From positions 1 through 20,052 of the IMG/VR virus record IMGVR_UViG_3300044622_000352: a stretch of DNA of 20,052 nucleotides. The stretch is one strand, 5' to 3'. This DNA is from a virus. A program made the translations under genes and the position numbers. Positions 2,445 through 14,023 of the stretch are shown here, piece by piece. Positions within the stretch are counted from its first letter, which is position 1. Every line of letters begins with the position of its first letter. The notes under the pieces were generated by a model. It was not told the origin of the DNA. It saw only the letters and a program-made list of their open reading frames with translations, and ran no database searches.

Positions 2445-2533
2445 CAGAACACGTCCTCCTCAACCTTGACGCGCGGCAGGAACTCAAACCGCTGCACGCT
2501 CAGCTCAGGCGGTGGGGTAATCGGATCAGTCAT
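2444..2533 (-). CDS. Short peptide gene, 29 aa
   Basis: ATG at 2533 overlaps the TAA of the clamp gene (TAATG), and its TGA overlaps the ATG of the next gene (TGATG), so it exactly fills the gap between the two. The peptide begins MTDPITPPPELSVQRFEFLP and ends in an acidic stretch. A Met-(Thr/Ser)-Asp-Pro-Ile-Thr-Pro-Pro-Pro start is, from memory, common among small cyanophage proteins; this should be tested by search. The function is unknown. Confidence 0.5.
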   Translation of the reverse strand: MTDPITPPPELSVQRFEFLPRVKVEEDVF

Positions 2534-3612
2534 TACCTCACCTGCACAGGCATGACCAAATACAGCTCGTTGTCGTTGCCGTCAGGCTTCATAACAACTG
2601 GAGTTGTTGGCCCGTTGGCTTTTATTTCAATAGACTCGCCTTCAAAGTGCTTAAGCGCATCCAGCAAGTATGTGACATTAACCGCCAGGTCTGGCAACGT
2701 ACCGCCACAAGTAATTGACTCTTGGCCGCTGCTTGCTTCGCATTCTGCCGTGATAGACAAAATGCCAATTGCTTCATCTGCTGTTAGTTTCACGATGTTT
2801 GTACCGCCGCTAGAGACAGCGGAGATTCGCTCTAGTGATTGAATCAACCTACGGCGATCAATACTTAAATGATGCTCAAACGTTTTCGGGATCAATTTGT
2901 CCACGCCAGGGAATGTTCCGTCTATTGTTCGACTGACAACGATGGTCCCGTCTTCGTCAACAATAGTGACCTGATGCTTGCTGGATAAGATTGAAACCTG
3001 CGCTGCATCCATCCTTAGCAGTTGCTGCATTGTTTTTGATGGCAACAGTAGATCTAAGTCGGGAGAATCGCATGGCAGTTTGCGAATAGCAAGTCGGTGT
3101 CCATCTGTAGCTTCGAGCCGCAATACCTTGTCATGCACTGTCAGGTGTACACCTGTCAATACTTGCTTGCATTCATCGGCGCTGCAGCAAGTCAAAACTG
3201 CCTTAAGCGCATCCGATATGGAAAGTTTTGTGGCAGCACCAGTGTCAACGACTGGCAGGTCTGGAAAGTCATCAGCAGGTGCTGTTGCGATCTTATACGT
3301 GCCCGCAGATGTCTTTAGGAATAGAAAGTCGTCTTTGTGTTGAACGCTGATAGCAGCATCCTGGTCAAGTCGGCTGACGATATCAGACAGTAGCTTGTAC
3401 GGCACTGCTGTTGCGCCTTTTTTATCAACAATGCTTAGCACTCCTGTTGTGATGCCAAGTTCTAAGTTGTACGCAGTGACTGACAAGTTGCTATCGTCAG
3501 CCTTAAGCAAGACGCTAGCCAGGATTGGATGATGTGACCTGCCGTTGCCTACGGCGCGACTCACAAGTTTCAGTGCTTGGTTTAAGTCACTTTGTGTTAG
3601 TGTCAGTTTCAT
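2533..3612 (-). CDS. dnaN: DNA polymerase III sliding clamp (beta subunit)
   Basis: This 359-aa protein is close to the usual 365-390 aa of the family. It begins MKLTLTQSDLNQALKLVSRA and includes the domain 1 pattern HPILASVLLKADDSNLSVTA, the domain 2 pattern EATDGHRLAIRK near 168-180 (diagnostic for DnaN), and a C-terminal LYLVMPVQVR ending like cyanobacterial clamps. A dimer of this protein encircles DNA and tethers polymerase and other replication and repair proteins. No polymerase gene is visible in the window, so it may serve host polymerase III or a polymerase encoded elsewhere in the phage. It is preceded by a 33-bp gap and overlaps the following 29-aa gene. Its codon use is AT-richer than the GC-rich small genes downstream, hinting at a different history. 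Confidence 0.95.
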   Translation of the reverse strand: MKLTLTQSDLNQALKLVSRAVGNGRSHHPILASVLLKADDSNLSVTAYNLELGITTGVLSIVDKKGATAVPYKLLSDIVSRLDQDAAISVQHKDDFLFLKTSAGTYKIATAPADDFPDLPVVDTGAATKLSISDALKAVLTCCSADECKQVLTGVHLTVHDKVLRLEATDGHRLAIRKLPCDSPDLDLLLPSKTMQQLLRMDAAQVSILSSKHQVTIVDEDGTIVVSRTIDGTFPGVDKLIPKTFEHHLSIDRRRLIQSLERISAVSSGGTNIVKLTADEAIGILSITAECEASSGQESITCGGTLPDLAVNVTYLLDALKHFEGESIEIKANGPTTPVVMKPDGNDNELYLVMPVQVR

Positions 3613-5454: not shown

Positions 5455-5712
5455 TCAAAGCTGATCCATGATGCCCATCAGCACTTCCTCTAGGTAAGTC
5501 TCTACATCGCGCAGCTTGCATAGAGCTGCTTGGCGTTCTGCGTATGCCTGGGAGTATGCGTCAGCCTCTTGTGGGTAGTAGTCACGGCCGTTGCAGGTTG
5601 CCTCGCAAAGAGAATCGATGGCAAACTTGACTGCTCTGTATGCGGTTTGGTATTCGCGGCGAAGGTCTTGTCCGCTGGTGCCGTTTAGGTGAATAGTTGG
5701 GATAGCGGTCAT
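5455..5712 (-). CDS. Hypothetical helical protein, 85 aa
   Basis: The ATG at 5712 overlaps the TGA of the upstream gene (ATGA). It replaces a much longer frame whose upstream part is a shadow of the membrane-HTH gene. The product begins MTAIPTIHLNGTSGQDLRRE, followed by long helices (YQTAYRAVKFAIDSLCEATC, then QAYAERQAALCKLRDVETYL). The opening IHLNGTSGxxLxxEY resembles a short family of phage proteins with the same N-terminal pattern; its role is unknown. It ends 57 bp before the next gene, in a gap holding leader copy A. Confidence 0.78.
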   Translation of the reverse strand: MTAIPTIHLNGTSGQDLRREYQTAYRAVKFAIDSLCEATCNGRDYYPQEADAYSQAYAERQAALCKLRDVETYLEEVLMGIMDQL

Positions 5713-8529: not shown

Positions 8530-9132
8530 TTATTTTTCCGTCATACCAAGGGAAAGCTGTTCAACAACTGCTGGCAACACCATGGTACCCCATTGGTGCG
8601 CCATGGCATTTGCAATGCCCTGATAAGTGCGGCTGCGATCTTTCCATCTGTTAGGGCCAGGTGGCATCCGATGTACCTTGGCTTCGCGGCCTTCAACCAC
8701 CTGCGTCGGCTTCAAGCGTGGCAGGTTCTTGAGCCATAAGCAGGTTGCCTTGGTTTCACCATGACCGAACTGCCACGGCTGGATGATCTGATGGGGGGGG
8801 GTAATCGCGCTGCTGATAATGCTGACAGGATTCTCAATGCACCAGCGGTCGATTGGCGCCGCCATCAGCAGCCGCACGAAATCTAGCGCTTCCGCTTGCT
8901 CGCGCTGTTTGCGGTGGAAATGCCTGCTGCCGGATACCGCCAAATGCGTGCATGGTGGATGGGCAATCATCAGATCCCAACCGTTGCCGAGCACCTCCTC
9001 GACTGGCTGTTGCAAATGCCATTGCGGATCGCCTTCGCATGGCAGCAGATCGCAGCTAAAAGCAAAATGCCCGCAACGCCTAAAGGCATCACGGACACGA
9101 GCGCTGTATTCGCAGGCAACAAGAACGCGCAA
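8530..9132 (-). CDS. DNA cytosine C5-methyltransferase-like protein
   Basis: This 200-aa protein has an N-terminal MRVLVACEYSARVRDAFRRC typical of Rossmann SAM-binding motif I in a phage methyltransferase-like family. It has IAHPPCTHLAVSG near 56-68 with a Pro-Pro-Cys at 59-61 (candidate for the catalytic cysteine), and IENPVS at 99-104 (ENV-like motif). It also has IIQPWQFGHGETKATCLWLK near 116-135. The full target-recognition domain of Dcm-type enzymes is missing, so activity and specificity are uncertain. The family is common in phages and may act in host evasion. Its gene contains a run of nine C residues on the coding strand (8793-8801). It lies 3 bp after the upstream gene and ends about 24 bp before promoter block C. 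Confidence 0.78.
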   Translation of the reverse strand: MRVLVACEYSARVRDAFRRCGHFAFSCDLLPCEGDPQWHLQQPVEEVLGNGWDLMIAHPPCTHLAVSGSRHFHRKQREQAEALDFVRLLMAAPIDRWCIENPVSIISSAITPPHQIIQPWQFGHGETKATCLWLKNLPRLKPTQVVEGREAKVHRMPPGPNRWKDRSRTYQGIANAMAHQWGTMVLPAVVEQLSLGMTEK

Positions 9133-10256: not shown

Positions 10257-10415
10257 ATGCCAAGAGTCGTTGTAGACGTCAGTCAAGAAATGCTTAACTG
10301 GCTGCAGTCCCAGCAAGGAGACTGGAAGCCAAGGACCGCTGTCCTGCGCGAAATCATTGAGGAAGCAATGGTCGCTAGCGGCTCTCAAGCGACCAAACCT
10401 GACCAGCAAAAATAA
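10257..10415 (+). CDS. Ribbon-helix-helix (CopG/Arc-like) regulator, 52 aa
   Basis: The start at 10257 gives MPRVVVDVSQEMLNWLQSQQ: a beta strand (RVVVDVS) followed by two helices (residues about 9-19 and 26-39, with RTAVLREIIEEAM). This is the classical ribbon-helix-helix layout, which dimerises and inserts the strand pair into the DNA major groove. The upstream frame to 10215 would overlap the intergenic region and is rejected. Position at the divergence between left-arm and right-arm genes suggests it controls one or both arms. The tail (SGSQATKPDQQK) is polar. A hairpin follows at once. Confidence 0.75.
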   Translation: MPRVVVDVSQEMLNWLQSQQGDWKPRTAVLREIIEEAMVASGSQATKPDQQK

Positions 10416-10484: not shown

Positions 10485-11282
10485 ATGCCACGAATTAGGT
10501 CAACAGGGTTCTCAATCTGTCCACACGAGATCATGGATCAGATTGCAGAACCAGGCGGCAAGCAGCGCGTATGCGTTTACCTGCTGCTTCATCGCCACGG
10601 CAACGGCAGCCCAGATGGCTGCTACGCATCGGTCACAACGCTCTCACATGAACTTGGCAGCAGCCGTAGAGACGTCATGGCGGCCATCCAGTGGCTGATC
10701 ACCAATGGCTGGGCTACCTACGTCTACGACGACCACTGCAGGCGGCACATCTACCTCAACGTTGATCGCCGCAAGCAGCGCACCACCAGTGCCCAAAAAG
10801 GCACCAATACCAAAGAGCCAAAAAGGCACCGTGGTATCCAAAAAGGCACCGGGAGTAATAGTGCCTTTTTAGACACCGACCCTGGTATCCAAAAAGGCAC
10901 CCAATCAAGATCCCATGAACAAGATCCCTCTATCTCTTCCATAGGTACTAACGTACCTATAGAATCGATAGATGCCGATTTACCTGAAAAAAGGGTCGAA
11001 ACGAAGACCAAGCCAATGGCACCAGACCTTGAGCCGCACAGGGATCTGGTAACAGCTTTCTGGAAAATCAAGAAAGGCTCCAAGGGGGACATAGCTTGGA
11101 AGCTTTTGTGCACAGAGCTGTTAAAGTTTCACCACAACCTCGGTCCATGTGCAGTCGAGGAGCAGCTCACGCTTGCGATCAACGGCAAGTGGGCTGGCAT
11201 CAGCTACAGCCGTCACCTGCAGTTCAATCCGCACCTCGTTGAAGCCACTGCGGCATCCGCACCACAGTTCGTGATCCGCTAA
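10485..11282 (+). CDS. Winged-helix replication initiator-like protein
   Basis: In this 265-aa protein residues about 25-95 form a winged helix: QRVCVYLLLHRHGNGSPDGC, then ASVTTLSHELGSSRRDVMAA, then IQWLITNGWATYVYDDHCRR and HIYLNV as the wing. Residues about 96-180 are low complexity (Gln, Lys, Gly, Thr, Ser). The C-terminal domain, about 185-265, is helical (RDLVTAFWKIKKGSKGDIAW onward). This domain order parallels phage replication proteins of the lambda O type, in which the N-terminal domain binds origin iterons located in the middle of the gene; here repeats occur at the same place. It opens the right arm. The fold is clear but the initiator role is inferred. Confidence 0.72.
   Translation: MPRIRSTGFSICPHEIMDQIAEPGGKQRVCVYLLLHRHGNGSPDGCYASVTTLSHELGSSRRDVMAAIQWLITNGWATYVYDDHCRRHIYLNVDRRKQRTTSAQKGTNTKEPKRHRGIQKGTGSNSAFLDTDPGIQKGTQSRSHEQDPSISSIGTNVPIESIDADLPEKRVETKTKPMAPDLEPHRDLVTAFWKIKKGSKGDIAWKLLCTELLKFHHNLGPCAVEEQLTLAINGKWAGISYSRHLQFNPHLVEATAASAPQFVIR
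10793..10901 (+). repeat. Iteron array inside the initiator gene, probable replication origin
   Basis: The 13-mer CCAAAAAGGCACC occurs perfectly at 10793-10805, 10818-10830, 10838-10850 and 10889-10901. The inverted core GTGCCTTTTT is at 10861-10870. The third and fourth direct copies are preceded by TGGTAT. The copies do not all share a reading frame: three encode QKGT, one encodes PKRH and the inverted one encodes SAFL. DNA identity is therefore conserved rather than protein. Spacing is 25, 20 and 51 bp between starts. A 20-bp palindrome lies 40 bp downstream. This is the arrangement expected of an origin bound by the encoded protein. Confidence 0.75.
10941..10960. repeat. 20-bp perfect hairpin next to the iterons
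   Basis: ATAGGTAC-TAAC-GTACCTAT is a perfect 8-bp inverted repeat with a 4-nt loop, in an AT-rich stretch downstream of the iterons (through about 10990). It lies in codons for GTNVPI, so it is not explained by protein constraint. It could be a second protein site or an unwinding structure of the origin. Confidence 0.6.
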
Positions 11283-12148: not shown

Positions 12149-12358
12149 ATGCAGCATCGTTTTCAGCTCAGAACAGCCGTTGGTGCGTACGAGTTTTCGT
12201 ACGACTTAAGCTCGCGCAGCCTTTGCCTTGTGCGTTGGCCAGATGGCCGCTCAGCAATGCGCATTCTTGCCGCTGGTTTGCCAAAAACAATTGAAGATGC
12301 CACTATTGCTGCAACAAACCACATAAGGTATATTGAAACCGACTACCAAAGTTGTTAG
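12149..12358 (+). CDS. Hypothetical beta-rich protein, 69 aa
   Basis: The ATG at 12149 (MQHRFQLRTAVGAYEFSYDL) is preferred over an in-frame GTG at 12137. The sequence alternates short beta strands (FQLRTAVGAYEFSYD, RSLCLVRWPDG) and ends in a helix (TIEDATIAATNHIRYIETDY). Its stop overlaps the possible GTG start of the ParB-like gene. Function unknown. The N-terminal nucleotides contain a stretch similar to the minus-strand promoter block, but at an unsuitable position. Confidence 0.62.
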   Translation: MQHRFQLRTAVGAYEFSYDLSSRSLCLVRWPDGRSAMRILAAGLPKTIEDATIAATNHIRYIETDYQSC

Positions 12359-12366
12359 TGCTATCA

Positions 12367-13170
12367 ATGCTTCCGTTTGACGAGGTATCCACAGATCCCG
12401 TTGTCACATCAATAAAGGATCTGAAGCACGATCATAGAAATGCCAGGCGACGGACTGATCGCAGCAGCAAGCTTATTGCTGAATCGCTAAAACGTTATGG
12501 GGCCGCTAGGTCAATTGTCATCGACGAAGACAACCGCATCCTTGCAGGCAATGGCACCATCGAAGGTGCAAAGGCCGCTGGTATTAAAAACATTCGTGTC
12601 ATTGAAACCGATGGCTCTGAAATTATTGCCGTAAGGCGCACTGATCTTTCAGAAGATGACAAAATTGGACTTGCGCTTGCTGATAACCGCACCAGCGATC
12701 TTAGCGAATGGGATGGCGCCATGCTGCATCAAATCAGCGAAGAGCATGACATCAGCACATGGTTTGACAAGGAAGAATTAGACGAGCTGTTCGGAATTGA
12801 AGAAACAATAGACGAGGACAGCCCTTACACAAACAAAACAACTGCACCAATTTATGAGCCAAGTGGCACGCAATACAAGCCCGAACACCTTTACGATGCA
12901 ACGAAAACAAATCAGCTTATTGCTGAAATCCAAATCGCTGACATCCCTGATGACATCAAGGTTTTCTTGACCTTAGCGGCACATCGTCACACAGCATTTA
13001 CCTACAGCAAGATTGCTGATTACTACGCAACCGCACCAAAAGAAATCCAGTCGTTATTTGAAGACTCGGCTCTTGTCATTATTGACTTTGAGCAAGCCAT
13101 AGAAAACGGCTTTGTGCGCCTTGATGAGCGCGTAGAACAATCTTTTAAACAGGATCATCCCGATGCGTAA
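12367..13170 (+). CDS. ParB/sulfiredoxin-like domain protein, 267 aa
   Basis: Residues about 14-85 match the ParB-like nuclease fold: SIKDLKHDHRNARRRTDRSS, then AESLKRYGAARSIVIDEDNR, then ILAGNGTIEGAKAAGIKNIR. The 'GNGT' replaces the GxxR box of plasmid ParB. Middle residues (95-165) include LSEDDKIGLALADNRTSDLS, a typical extension of phage-encoded ParB-like proteins. The C-terminal part includes YEPSGTQYKPEHLYDATKTN and SALVIIDFEQAIENGFVRLD, known to me from proteins that sit next to or are fused to phage DNA-modification enzymes. A GTG at 12358 is an alternative start. It overlaps the next gene by 8 nt. Its precise role (nuclease, ATPase or guide for base modification) is uncertain. Confidence 0.82.
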   Translation: MLPFDEVSTDPVVTSIKDLKHDHRNARRRTDRSSKLIAESLKRYGAARSIVIDEDNRILAGNGTIEGAKAAGIKNIRVIETDGSEIIAVRRTDLSEDDKIGLALADNRTSDLSEWDGAMLHQISEEHDISTWFDKEELDELFGIEETIDEDSPYTNKTTAPIYEPSGTQYKPEHLYDATKTNQLIAEIQIADIPDDIKVFLTLAAHRHTAFTYSKIADYYATAPKEIQSLFEDSALVIIDFEQAIENGFVRLDERVEQSFKQDHPDA

Positions 13171-14023
13171 CGACTTCTGTATCTTTATCTTGTCAAACCG
13201 CAGGCCGGATAACATCAAAACCCTTGATACACTTCAAAAGTGTGGCTACACCGGCAAGTGGTTTATCGTCATTGACGATGAAGACCCAACGGCCGAGCAG
13301 TACAAAAAACAATTTGGTGACCGCGTACTTGTCTTTTCAAAAGCAAAGGTTGCTGAAATCACAGACTCATGCGATACATCTAAGGATCGCCGTACTCCGT
13401 TGTGGGCGCGTAATGCTTGCTGGGATCTAGCCAAGCAGGTCAAGTGCCGGTTCTTCTGTCAACTAGACGATGACTACACCTGGTTCGGTCACAGACGTAT
13501 GGCCAAAATAAATTCATCACCAAACCCTAAATATGTAAACTGCGTTTCGGAAAGCATTGATATTATCTTTGACGGTACGGTGGAGTTTCTTGAAAATACG
13601 CCATCGGTTTCAAGCATTGCCTTCTCACAAGGAGGCGATTACAACACAAGTCCTGAAAAAGCTAAACGGGTATTGCGTAAAGCAATGAACTCATTCTTTT
13701 GCGATACGCAGCGCCCTTTCAAATTTATCGGCAAATTCAACGATGATGTCAATACCTACATTGCTCATGGAGCCACTGGGAAGCTCTTTTTTACATACTG
13801 TCCTTTCCAGCTCAATCAAGCAAAAACACAGCAAAACGCTGGTGGTATCACGGAGGCTTACAAGGAAAATGGCACCTATGTCAAATCCTTCTACACAGTT
13901 ATGATCTCGCCATCCTCAACCTGGATCGAACTGATGGGGCACTCCAACCCACGCCTTCACCACACACATGACTGGAATAAAGTATGCCCAAAAATCATTC
14001 ACGAGAAATATCGACGCCAATAG
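13163..14023 (+). CDS. TAGT-like (TET-associated) glycosyltransferase, 286 aa
   Basis: The protein starts MRNDFCIFILSNRRPDNIKT and has the nucleotide-sugar-binding pattern GYTGKWFIVIDDEDPT near 28-43. The metal-binding DxD-type motif CQLDDDYTWF is near 99-108. Further on are WARNACWDLAKQ and a C-terminal half with FIGKFNDDVNTYIAHGATGK. This matches the GT-A-like glycosyltransferases found near base-hydroxylating TET/JBP enzymes in phages, which add sugars to hydroxymethylated bases. No TET/JBP or hydroxymethylase gene is in the window. It overlaps the ParB-like gene by 8 nt, so the two probably act together. The family call comes from memory and the sugar substrate is unknown. Confidence 0.72.
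   Translation: MRNDFCIFILSNRRPDNIKTLDTLQKCGYTGKWFIVIDDEDPTAEQYKKQFGDRVLVFSKAKVAEITDSCDTSKDRRTPLWARNACWDLAKQVKCRFFCQLDDDYTWFGHRRMAKINSSPNPKYVNCVSESIDIIFDGTVEFLENTPSVSSIAFSQGGDYNTSPEKAKRVLRKAMNSFFCDTQRPFKFIGKFNDDVNTYIAHGATGKLFFTYCPFQLNQAKTQQNAGGITEAYKENGTYVKSFYTVMISPSSTWIELMGHSNPRLHHTHDWNKVCPKIIHEKYRRQ

Follow-up and report, generated by a model that had tools for sequence, protein, structure and literature searches.

The window, that is, the whole stretch of 20,052 bases analysed here from an incomplete viral record, carries a gene for a replication-initiator-like protein at the point where its leftward and rightward gene blocks diverge. The virus had been taken for a cyanophage from its sequence alone and this assignment holds: among 958 terminase records, the eight best matches listed all come from phages of Synechococcus and Prochlorococcus, with identities of 73-79%. 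Between the code for the winged helix and that for the C-domain lie five dyad iterons, two boxes and a hairpin, and the features of the locus are as follows.

10257 to 10415, plus strand: small RHH-like open reading frame just upstream of the initiator gene (sequence pattern)
10485 to 11282, plus strand: initiator gene, 265 residues (open reading frame; HTH_36 at E 2.4e-7; PHROG replication initiation profiles; AF2 model)
10524 to 10757, plus strand: winged-helix DNA-binding domain, residues 14-91, with the HTH_36 match at 31-76 (AF2, VIA-align)
10770 to 11006, plus strand: linker, residues 96-174, predicted disordered (pLDDT below 50), whose DNA holds the entire putative origin
10788 to 10805, plus strand: iteron 1, AGTGCCCAAAAAGGCACC (sequence repeat)
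10813 to 10830, plus strand: iteron 2, in another reading frame (PKRH; sequence repeat)
10833 to 10850, plus strand: iteron 3 (sequence repeat)
10860 to 10877, minus strand: iteron 4, inverted, in the third frame position (sequence repeat)
10884 to 10901, plus strand: iteron 5, adjoining the boxes (sequence repeat)
10904 to 10914, plus strand: box 1, ATCAAGATCCC, repeat of a putative unwinding element, one base off AACAAGAWCCC (sequence repeat)
10918 to 10928, plus strand: box 2, AACAAGATCCC, 14 nt past box 1 and in another frame (sequence repeat)
10941 to 10960, strand not applicable: perfect 8-bp inverted repeat with a 4-nt loop, ATAGGTAC-TAAC-GTACCTAT (sequence; clade-wide compensatory change)
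11022 to 11186, plus strand: helical C-domain, residues 180-234 (FWxxKKG ... AIxxxW; AF2; conserved across iteron types)

The AF2 model of the initiator protein, which has low overall confidence (pLDDT 60.6, pTM 0.36), consists of a winged helix, a low-confidence linker and a helical C-domain. Ten-residue mean pLDDT is 75-92 over residues 11-90, and VIA-align matches the model to winged helices across about residues 6-96 with Z up to 9.3. The recognition helix is placed at about residues 61-73. The low-confidence linker coincides with the putative origin DNA, which was counted in favour of an in-gene origin. Fold searches returned varied winged helices from the PDB, none at E<=0.001 and many of those listed being transcription factors, and 50 viral proteins from BFVD at E<=0.001 with high rmsd, many of them unnamed or described only as helix-turn-helix and a few as initiator, replisome organizer or GpO N-terminal. 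A sequence search of solved structures gave none that matched lambda O or the family profile A2.

The protein had been described as not recognisably O-like, and this is only partly the case. HTH_36 is its sole Pfam match above cut-off; Phage_rep_O (PF04492), which matches lambda O at E 5.7e-36, phi80 gp15 at 6e-25 and P22 gp18 at 6.9e-38, is absent from its Pfam matches at E<=1, and a comparison with lambda O by hhalign is likewise negative. On the other side, three PHROG profiles named 'replication initiation O-like' match it (phrog_391 at 1.1e-7, phrog_345 at 7.4e-6 and phrog_678 at 3.1e-4), and all three also match lambda O, with phrog_391 aligning the two proteins largely to separate stretches of itself. 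This O-like match is weak for the window protein and stronger for its relative L027 (phrog_678, 3.1e-19). A DnaD-type profile, phrog_186 (8.4e-6), matches residues 6-149, hence outside the C-domain, and Pfam DnaD gives no match. As the in-gene layout and the O-like PHROG profiles are common to both proteins and Pfam fails, the window protein would work like lambda O without being a Phage_rep_O member, and remote kinship with lambda O is probable; remote homology to the O-like initiators is likelier than convergence, if short of proven.

The iteron core CCAAAAAGGCACC occurs exactly at 10793, 10818, 10838 and 10889 on the plus strand and, with two mismatches, as an inverted copy at 10860-10872. 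The window holds seven matches with up to two mismatches, compared with a mean of 0.53 and a maximum of 3 in 100 dinucleotide shuffles, and the remaining two, at 5677 and 6105, stand isolated. The four perfect direct copies and one inverted core that were first noticed in the linker-coding part are thus confirmed beyond dinucleotide shuffles. Copies 1, 3 and 4 share a reading frame (QKGT), copy 2 lies in another (PKRH) and the inverted copy in the third. When codons were shuffled synonymously with the protein fixed, 0 of 100 shuffles reached the observed five copies of the best 12-mer; as a control, any 12-mer has at most 2-3 copies in 10 other window genes. With three frames and both strands in use, the conserved unit is the DNA and not the peptide, as had been argued from the sequence. 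The unit reads better as an 18-bp imperfect dyad, five in all, with start-to-start spacings of 25, 20, 27 and 24; iteron 1 is the best dyad (AGTGCC-CAAAAA-GGCACC), and dyad self-matches are 8 to 10 of 18 in the window iterons and 8 to 14 of 18 in lambda's four.

Past the last iteron there are two CAAGATCCC repeats, at 10906 and 10920. The box pattern AACAAGAWCCC has 77 sites in 45 initiator genes (including L056) and none in the remaining 455,435 bases of the same loci, many of them related and so not independent in their flanks. Boxes recur across iteron types, with at least two in 37 of 44 genes at a spacing of 14 or 15 nt, and a spacing of 14 nt puts neighbouring boxes in different frames. 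The KBS-type genes carry a related AATAAAAACCC form instead; L017 and six KBS-type genes have one box match each with the patterns used. The AT-rich zone proposed for this region is modest: the 60 nt past the last iteron are 40% GC, compared with 53% for the whole initiator gene.

The perfect 8-bp hairpin at 10941-10960 likewise stood up to analysis. Across 12 sequences of the window's clade (9 distinct), six of nine pairs have changed on both sides and three are invariant; 93.8% of cells are paired, compared with 70.3% when shuffled (0/500) and 22-38% in slid structures, controls that correct only in part for relatedness. Dinucleotide shuffles reach the hairpin 0-5 times in 300 in each of 11 genes of the clade, and the fixed-protein null is weaker, with the hairpin reached by 22 of 500 shuffles for the window and by between 1 and 42 for six other genes. 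In relatives outside the clade, none of the hairpins reaches significance by itself in a scan that misplaced the region in three KBS-type genes; in dinucleotide shuffles of known origins, the 7-bp hairpin of P22 is significant (2/300), and those of lambda (36) and phi80 (280) are not. Since the sequence changes while pairing is kept, the hairpin is likelier to work as a folded strand than as a fixed protein site.

Relatives were collected from viral contigs by scanning with the window protein (14 loci), profile A1 (15 loci, 3 of them new), the KBS-S-2A protein (15 loci) and profile A3, of which the best 80 of 89 loci were used. When genome contigs were scanned with profile A3, none of the 48 pattern matches proved to be a relative, and the scan thus yielded no prophage host. 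Among cultured phages the nearest relative found is the cyanophage KBS-S-2A, at 26.5% identity over 96% of the protein. Its homologue, CPKG_00028 (annotated hypothetical, 16.3-17.1 kb), resembles the window in lying at a like divergent junction and in having in-gene iterons, a repeat and an inverted repeat. The iterons, which differ in sequence, are of the CCCCAAAAGGTGG type with 16- and 24-nt spacing in two frames, the repeat is a 15-nt AAAACCCAGTA and the inverted repeat is AGGCGC-AA-GCGCCT. No origin is annotated among 59 of the 64 KBS-S-2A features, and the KBS2A genome announcement names none (PMC3751600). The annotated initiator of MED4-184 has no comparable repeat array.

The complete winged-helix relatives whose linker was read have repeats at the same place and of different sequence. 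The iteron type is GGTGYCCAAAAAGGCACC in the window's clade, GGTCGAAAACGACC in L026-L029, TACCGGATCCGGTA in L030, GGTTCAAAAATGAACC in L031 and CCCCT..CAAAAACG..AGGGG in L057-L063, while in L021, L024 and L025 the sites are four degenerate CCAAAA cores that occupy the same positions as in KBS-S-2A, with spacings of 16, 24 and 24. With the protein fixed, synonymous shuffles matched the observed count 0 times in 100 in eight genes of a 22-gene set, 1-3 times in six and at least 8 times in eight, and in a second set of 21 genes 0 times in 40 in 16 and 1-3 times in five. The eight non-significant genes (L004, L007, L008, L010, L011, L021, L024 and L025) have mostly same-frame or degenerate copies; the sensitivity of this test is limited, since P22 and L021, L024 and L025 fail despite having sites. 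The best 12-mer falls in more than one frame in 13 of the 22 genes (L021 and L025 uncounted, their words being due to chance) and in 20 of the 21.

Across these relatives the iterons switch together with the N-domain. The 44 distinct genes were compared for N-domain identity, for C-domain identity and for the 8-mers they share, counted separately in the part of the linker that holds the iterons and in its box/hairpin part. Sharing of iteron 8-mers tracks the N-domain with the C-domain controlled (partial rho 0.77, 0/999 permutations, without phylogeny correction and with pairs that are not independent), and its partial rho with C-domain identity is -0.27 in the same genes. Box/hairpin sharing follows the N- and C-domains about equally (0.34 and 0.38). 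Moreover, 22 pairs (21 genes) with C-domains at least 85% and N-domains at most 70% identical share a mean of 0.003 of their iteron 8-mers, compared with 0.464 in 26 pairs alike in both. The set includes the window itself (L016) and L052, which was outside the shuffle tests. Left out were genes with same-contig or identical proteins (L001, L009, L022, L023, L032, L044, L049, L060, L066, L068, L070, L072, L077 and L079, with protein identity checked for L001, L009, L022, L023, L032, L049 and L060 and the others judged by contig name), L071, which differs from L069 by a single residue, L056 with its internal deletion, L073 with its broken frame, the spurious L034, the partial genes L012, L018, L019, L033, L064, L065, L078, L081 and L082, and loci with another or no N-domain (L013, L014, L043 and L083-L116). 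Linkage in recombination contributes to the co-switching, as the iterons adjoin the N-domain code, and the simplest reading of the pattern is that the N-domain binds the iterons.

The proposed parallel with lambda, an origin inside the initiator gene, is supported by these same-place repeats in relatives and by their co-variation with the N-domain. In published descriptions the lambda ori lies inside O and has four 18-bp iterons (PMC3349717, PMC5043065); they adjoin an AT-rich region (PMC3349717, PMC7466680, PMC5043065), whose length is given as 38-40 bp (PMC3349717, PMC5043065). Lambda O and phi80 gp15, taken with their annotated sites, resemble the window in the in-gene position and the A-rich-centred dyads; lambda's four 18-bp dyads occupy several frames, and iteron spacing is 20-24 nt in lambda and phi80 and 20-27 in the window. 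The 16-bp in-gene dyad of phi80, TTCCCGAAAACGGGAA, has the same design as AGGTCGAAAACGACCT of the relatives L026-L029. Unlike lambda, the window has no Phage_rep_O match or hhalign similarity, its box region is less AT-rich and no P-like gene was found in it. Phi80 differs in having a Phage_rep_O protein and a P-like neighbour, and neither a 14-nt box repeat nor a hairpin was found there. P22 gp18 also contains an annotated in-gene origin, with a 12-nt sequence directly and exactly repeated at 14 nt and, to its right, a 7-bp hairpin; it differs in its Phage_rep_O protein, in a next gene noted as similar to DnaB and in iterons too degenerate for the 12-mer test. To the right of the lambda iterons, a CAAAAGA repeat scores 9 of 12 at a spacing of 15 nt, and a spacing of 22 nt scores equally well. 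A link between the boxes and lambda-type origins is therefore suggestive only: the likeness is clear in P22, weak and tied in lambda and missing in phi80.

Similarly, oriL of SPP1 is described as lying within gene 38, with gp38 binding direct repeats beside an AT-rich element (PMC6316719). By this published description SPP1 resembles the window in having initiator repeats in the initiator's own gene, and it differs in encoding its own loader gp39 and helicase gp40 (PMC6316719). The same 12-mer script finds three copies each in lambda and phi80, with 2 of 100 shuffles as high, and fails in P22 (73/100); it finds 5 and 6 copies (0/100 shuffles) in genes of the Pseudomonas phages phi2 (L038:2929-3675) and PotUPM1 (L039:2929-3792). 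These two genes, annotated as O-like and hypothetical, contain strong unannotated in-gene repeats in three frames, followed by AGAACC repeats, and phi2 has a 10-of-12 repeat at 12 nt.

Several replication partners are encoded in the window, namely a beta clamp, an SSB, a Sak-type annealing protein, RusA and an exonuclease-family (phrog_298) protein. The clamp gene is at 2533-3612 (DNA polymerase III beta clamp, phrog_947 at 2.1e-68), and phage S-H1 also has an annotated one. Pfam finds no helicase, primase or loader, including a P-like one, among 20 window proteins; none was found among 10 early proteins of KBS-S-2A either, and its annotation, covered for 59 of 64 features, likewise lists no helicase, primase or loader; distant loaders could be missed by these searches. 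This suggests reliance on the host helicase, an argument that incomplete records and divergent loaders weaken. Cyanopodoviruses without a DNA polymerase gene are described as perhaps recruiting host polymerase III (PMC9860041). In S-H1, whose terminase is 76% identical, a large protein near the same junction (L118:5093-7684) is primase/helicase-like by sequence reading, so replication modules seem to be exchanged within the group. Other genes in the window include a member of the PHROG 'DNA methyltransferase' family at 8530-9132 (phrog_757, 2.4e-68; no Pfam match at 0.01) and a TET-associated glycosyltransferase-like gene at 13163-14023 (Pfam TAGT, 4.5e-30), whose place beside a ParB-like gene suggests hypermodified phage DNA.

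Taken together, the locus is best read as a phage replication origin that lies within the gene for its initiator protein and is bound by that protein's winged helix, a reading to which we give a probability of roughly 0.87. The winged helix would bind the iterons, probably as a dimer per dyad, and the array would wrap the DNA and open the adjacent box region. The C-domain, which stays constant when the iterons change, is proposed to be the part that recruits helicase or replisome; it would bring in the host replicative helicase, directly or through the host loader, a step proposed because no phage helicase or loader was found. Phage SSB and beta clamp could then support the host polymerase. 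The hairpin may serve as a single-strand loading or priming structure, which is the least certain step. With an origin where the gene blocks diverge, replication forks would be able to move in the same direction as transcription on either arm. Cumulative GC skew, suggested earlier as a check, did not bear out the location: it peaks near 9.4 kb and has no minimum at the candidate origin. It is no clearer in KBS-S-2A, and GC skew was set aside as of no use as an origin marker in either.

The alternative that survives best, though it is improbable, is that the repeats are operator sites through which the winged-helix protein or a neighbouring regulator controls transcription of the initiator gene, without origin function. 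Winged helices are common repressors, transcription factors are numerous among the fold matches listed, in-gene repeats could act as roadblocks and the upstream RHH-like ORF is regulator-like. This ORF has no Pfam match above cut-off and no PHROG match at E<=0.05, with a longer reading reaching phrog_4738 'transcriptional repressor' at 0.055; it is possibly a regulator and probably lies outside the origin. The co-switching of iterons with the N-domain is compatible with an operator as well as with an origin. However, the sites are some 300 nt into the gene, far from its start, the profile matches are to phage initiators, the iterons are followed by a hairpin and by boxes that recur across iteron types, and the lambda and phi80 controls with annotated sites look just like the window. 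A partition, packaging or recombination site of another phage protein is a still poorer candidate. A ParB-like gene (12352-13170; phrog_620, 6.5e-34) does start 1.1 kb downstream of the initiator gene, but the iterons follow the initiator's own N-domain in 44 genes and a separate protein would have to switch in step. The least credible explanation, that the DNA repetition is a by-product of a low-complexity QKGT-type peptide in a flexible linker, could draw on L007, L008, L010 and L011 (four copies in one frame, a count reached by 8-24 of 100 synonymous shuffles), but it is ruled out for the window by the frames, the strands and the fixed-protein shuffles, and 26 of the 27 genes tested from L026-L031 and L045-L080 read the same DNA word in two or three frames.

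The winged helix also appears to have been exchanged altogether. The N-terminus-reaching members of L083-L116, together with L013, L014 and Marine virus AG-345-A17, have the same C-domain and a different, short N-domain, and L043, with the same C-domain and an RHH-like head, groups with them. The head is RHH-like as a reading of the sequence pattern; an RHH fold is unproven, as none of 8 proteins searched has a Pfam match above cut-off and VIA gives a single match, with Z 3.0 over 34 residues. AF2 predicts two helices after an N-terminal segment. Directly before the start codon, 13 of 24 RHH-type loci tested (out of the 34 loci L083-L116) have periodic repeats (9-11 or 18-23 nt, p<=3/300), several of these 13 being near-duplicates, and in the other 11 periodicity is absent at that threshold. 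In L109, for example, CCAAACGGCG occurs exactly four times at 10-nt intervals, and a variant flanks the series at either end. Such repeats could be either origin iterons or operators. Some RHH-headed genes also carry short AT-rich direct repeats in the linker (L090, L100 and L109), and a similar linker hairpin, of the TTCTTCTTCT / AGAAGAAGAA type, is present at L107:5964-5991, L090:6006-6033 and L109:1289-1322. In the window's clade a separate small RHH-like ORF lies upstream of the initiator gene, a possible source of head fusions.

A tentative extension, which we consider less probable than not by a good way, is a two-part initiator whose halves evolve separately, with a constant loading half and an exchangeable origin-recognition half. 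The loading half, made up of the C-domain and, in winged-helix forms, the 14-nt boxes, might engage the host helicase without a phage loader. The heads would comprise several winged-helix types with in-gene iterons and an unrelated RHH-like head with 10-11-bp upstream repeats, so that a swap to the latter would shift the binding array from inside the gene to a place upstream of it. The boxes and the hairpin might then belong to a single device for opening and loading, which P22 and perhaps lambda would have as well.

To summarize, we infer an in-gene origin of the lambda layout in a cyanophage family, together with its binding, unwinding and replication. What is gained over the sequence-only reading is that the iterons follow the DNA-binding head, that boxes and a compensating hairpin accompany them and that the head has apparently been swapped. 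No assigned replication start was found for this cyanophage group, and a search of the open-access literature, mostly at listing level, gave no paper that locates an iteron-type origin in any cyanophage. Beyond the iterons, such origins would include the boxes and the compensating hairpin, which merit mutation tests. Dozens of matched recognition helices and iterons occur naturally in this family, several of them with C-domains that hardly differ, as in L028, L030 and L031 (95-98% identical), which makes origin specificity directly testable, and loader-free helicase loading by a phage initiator in a cyanobacterium also becomes testable.
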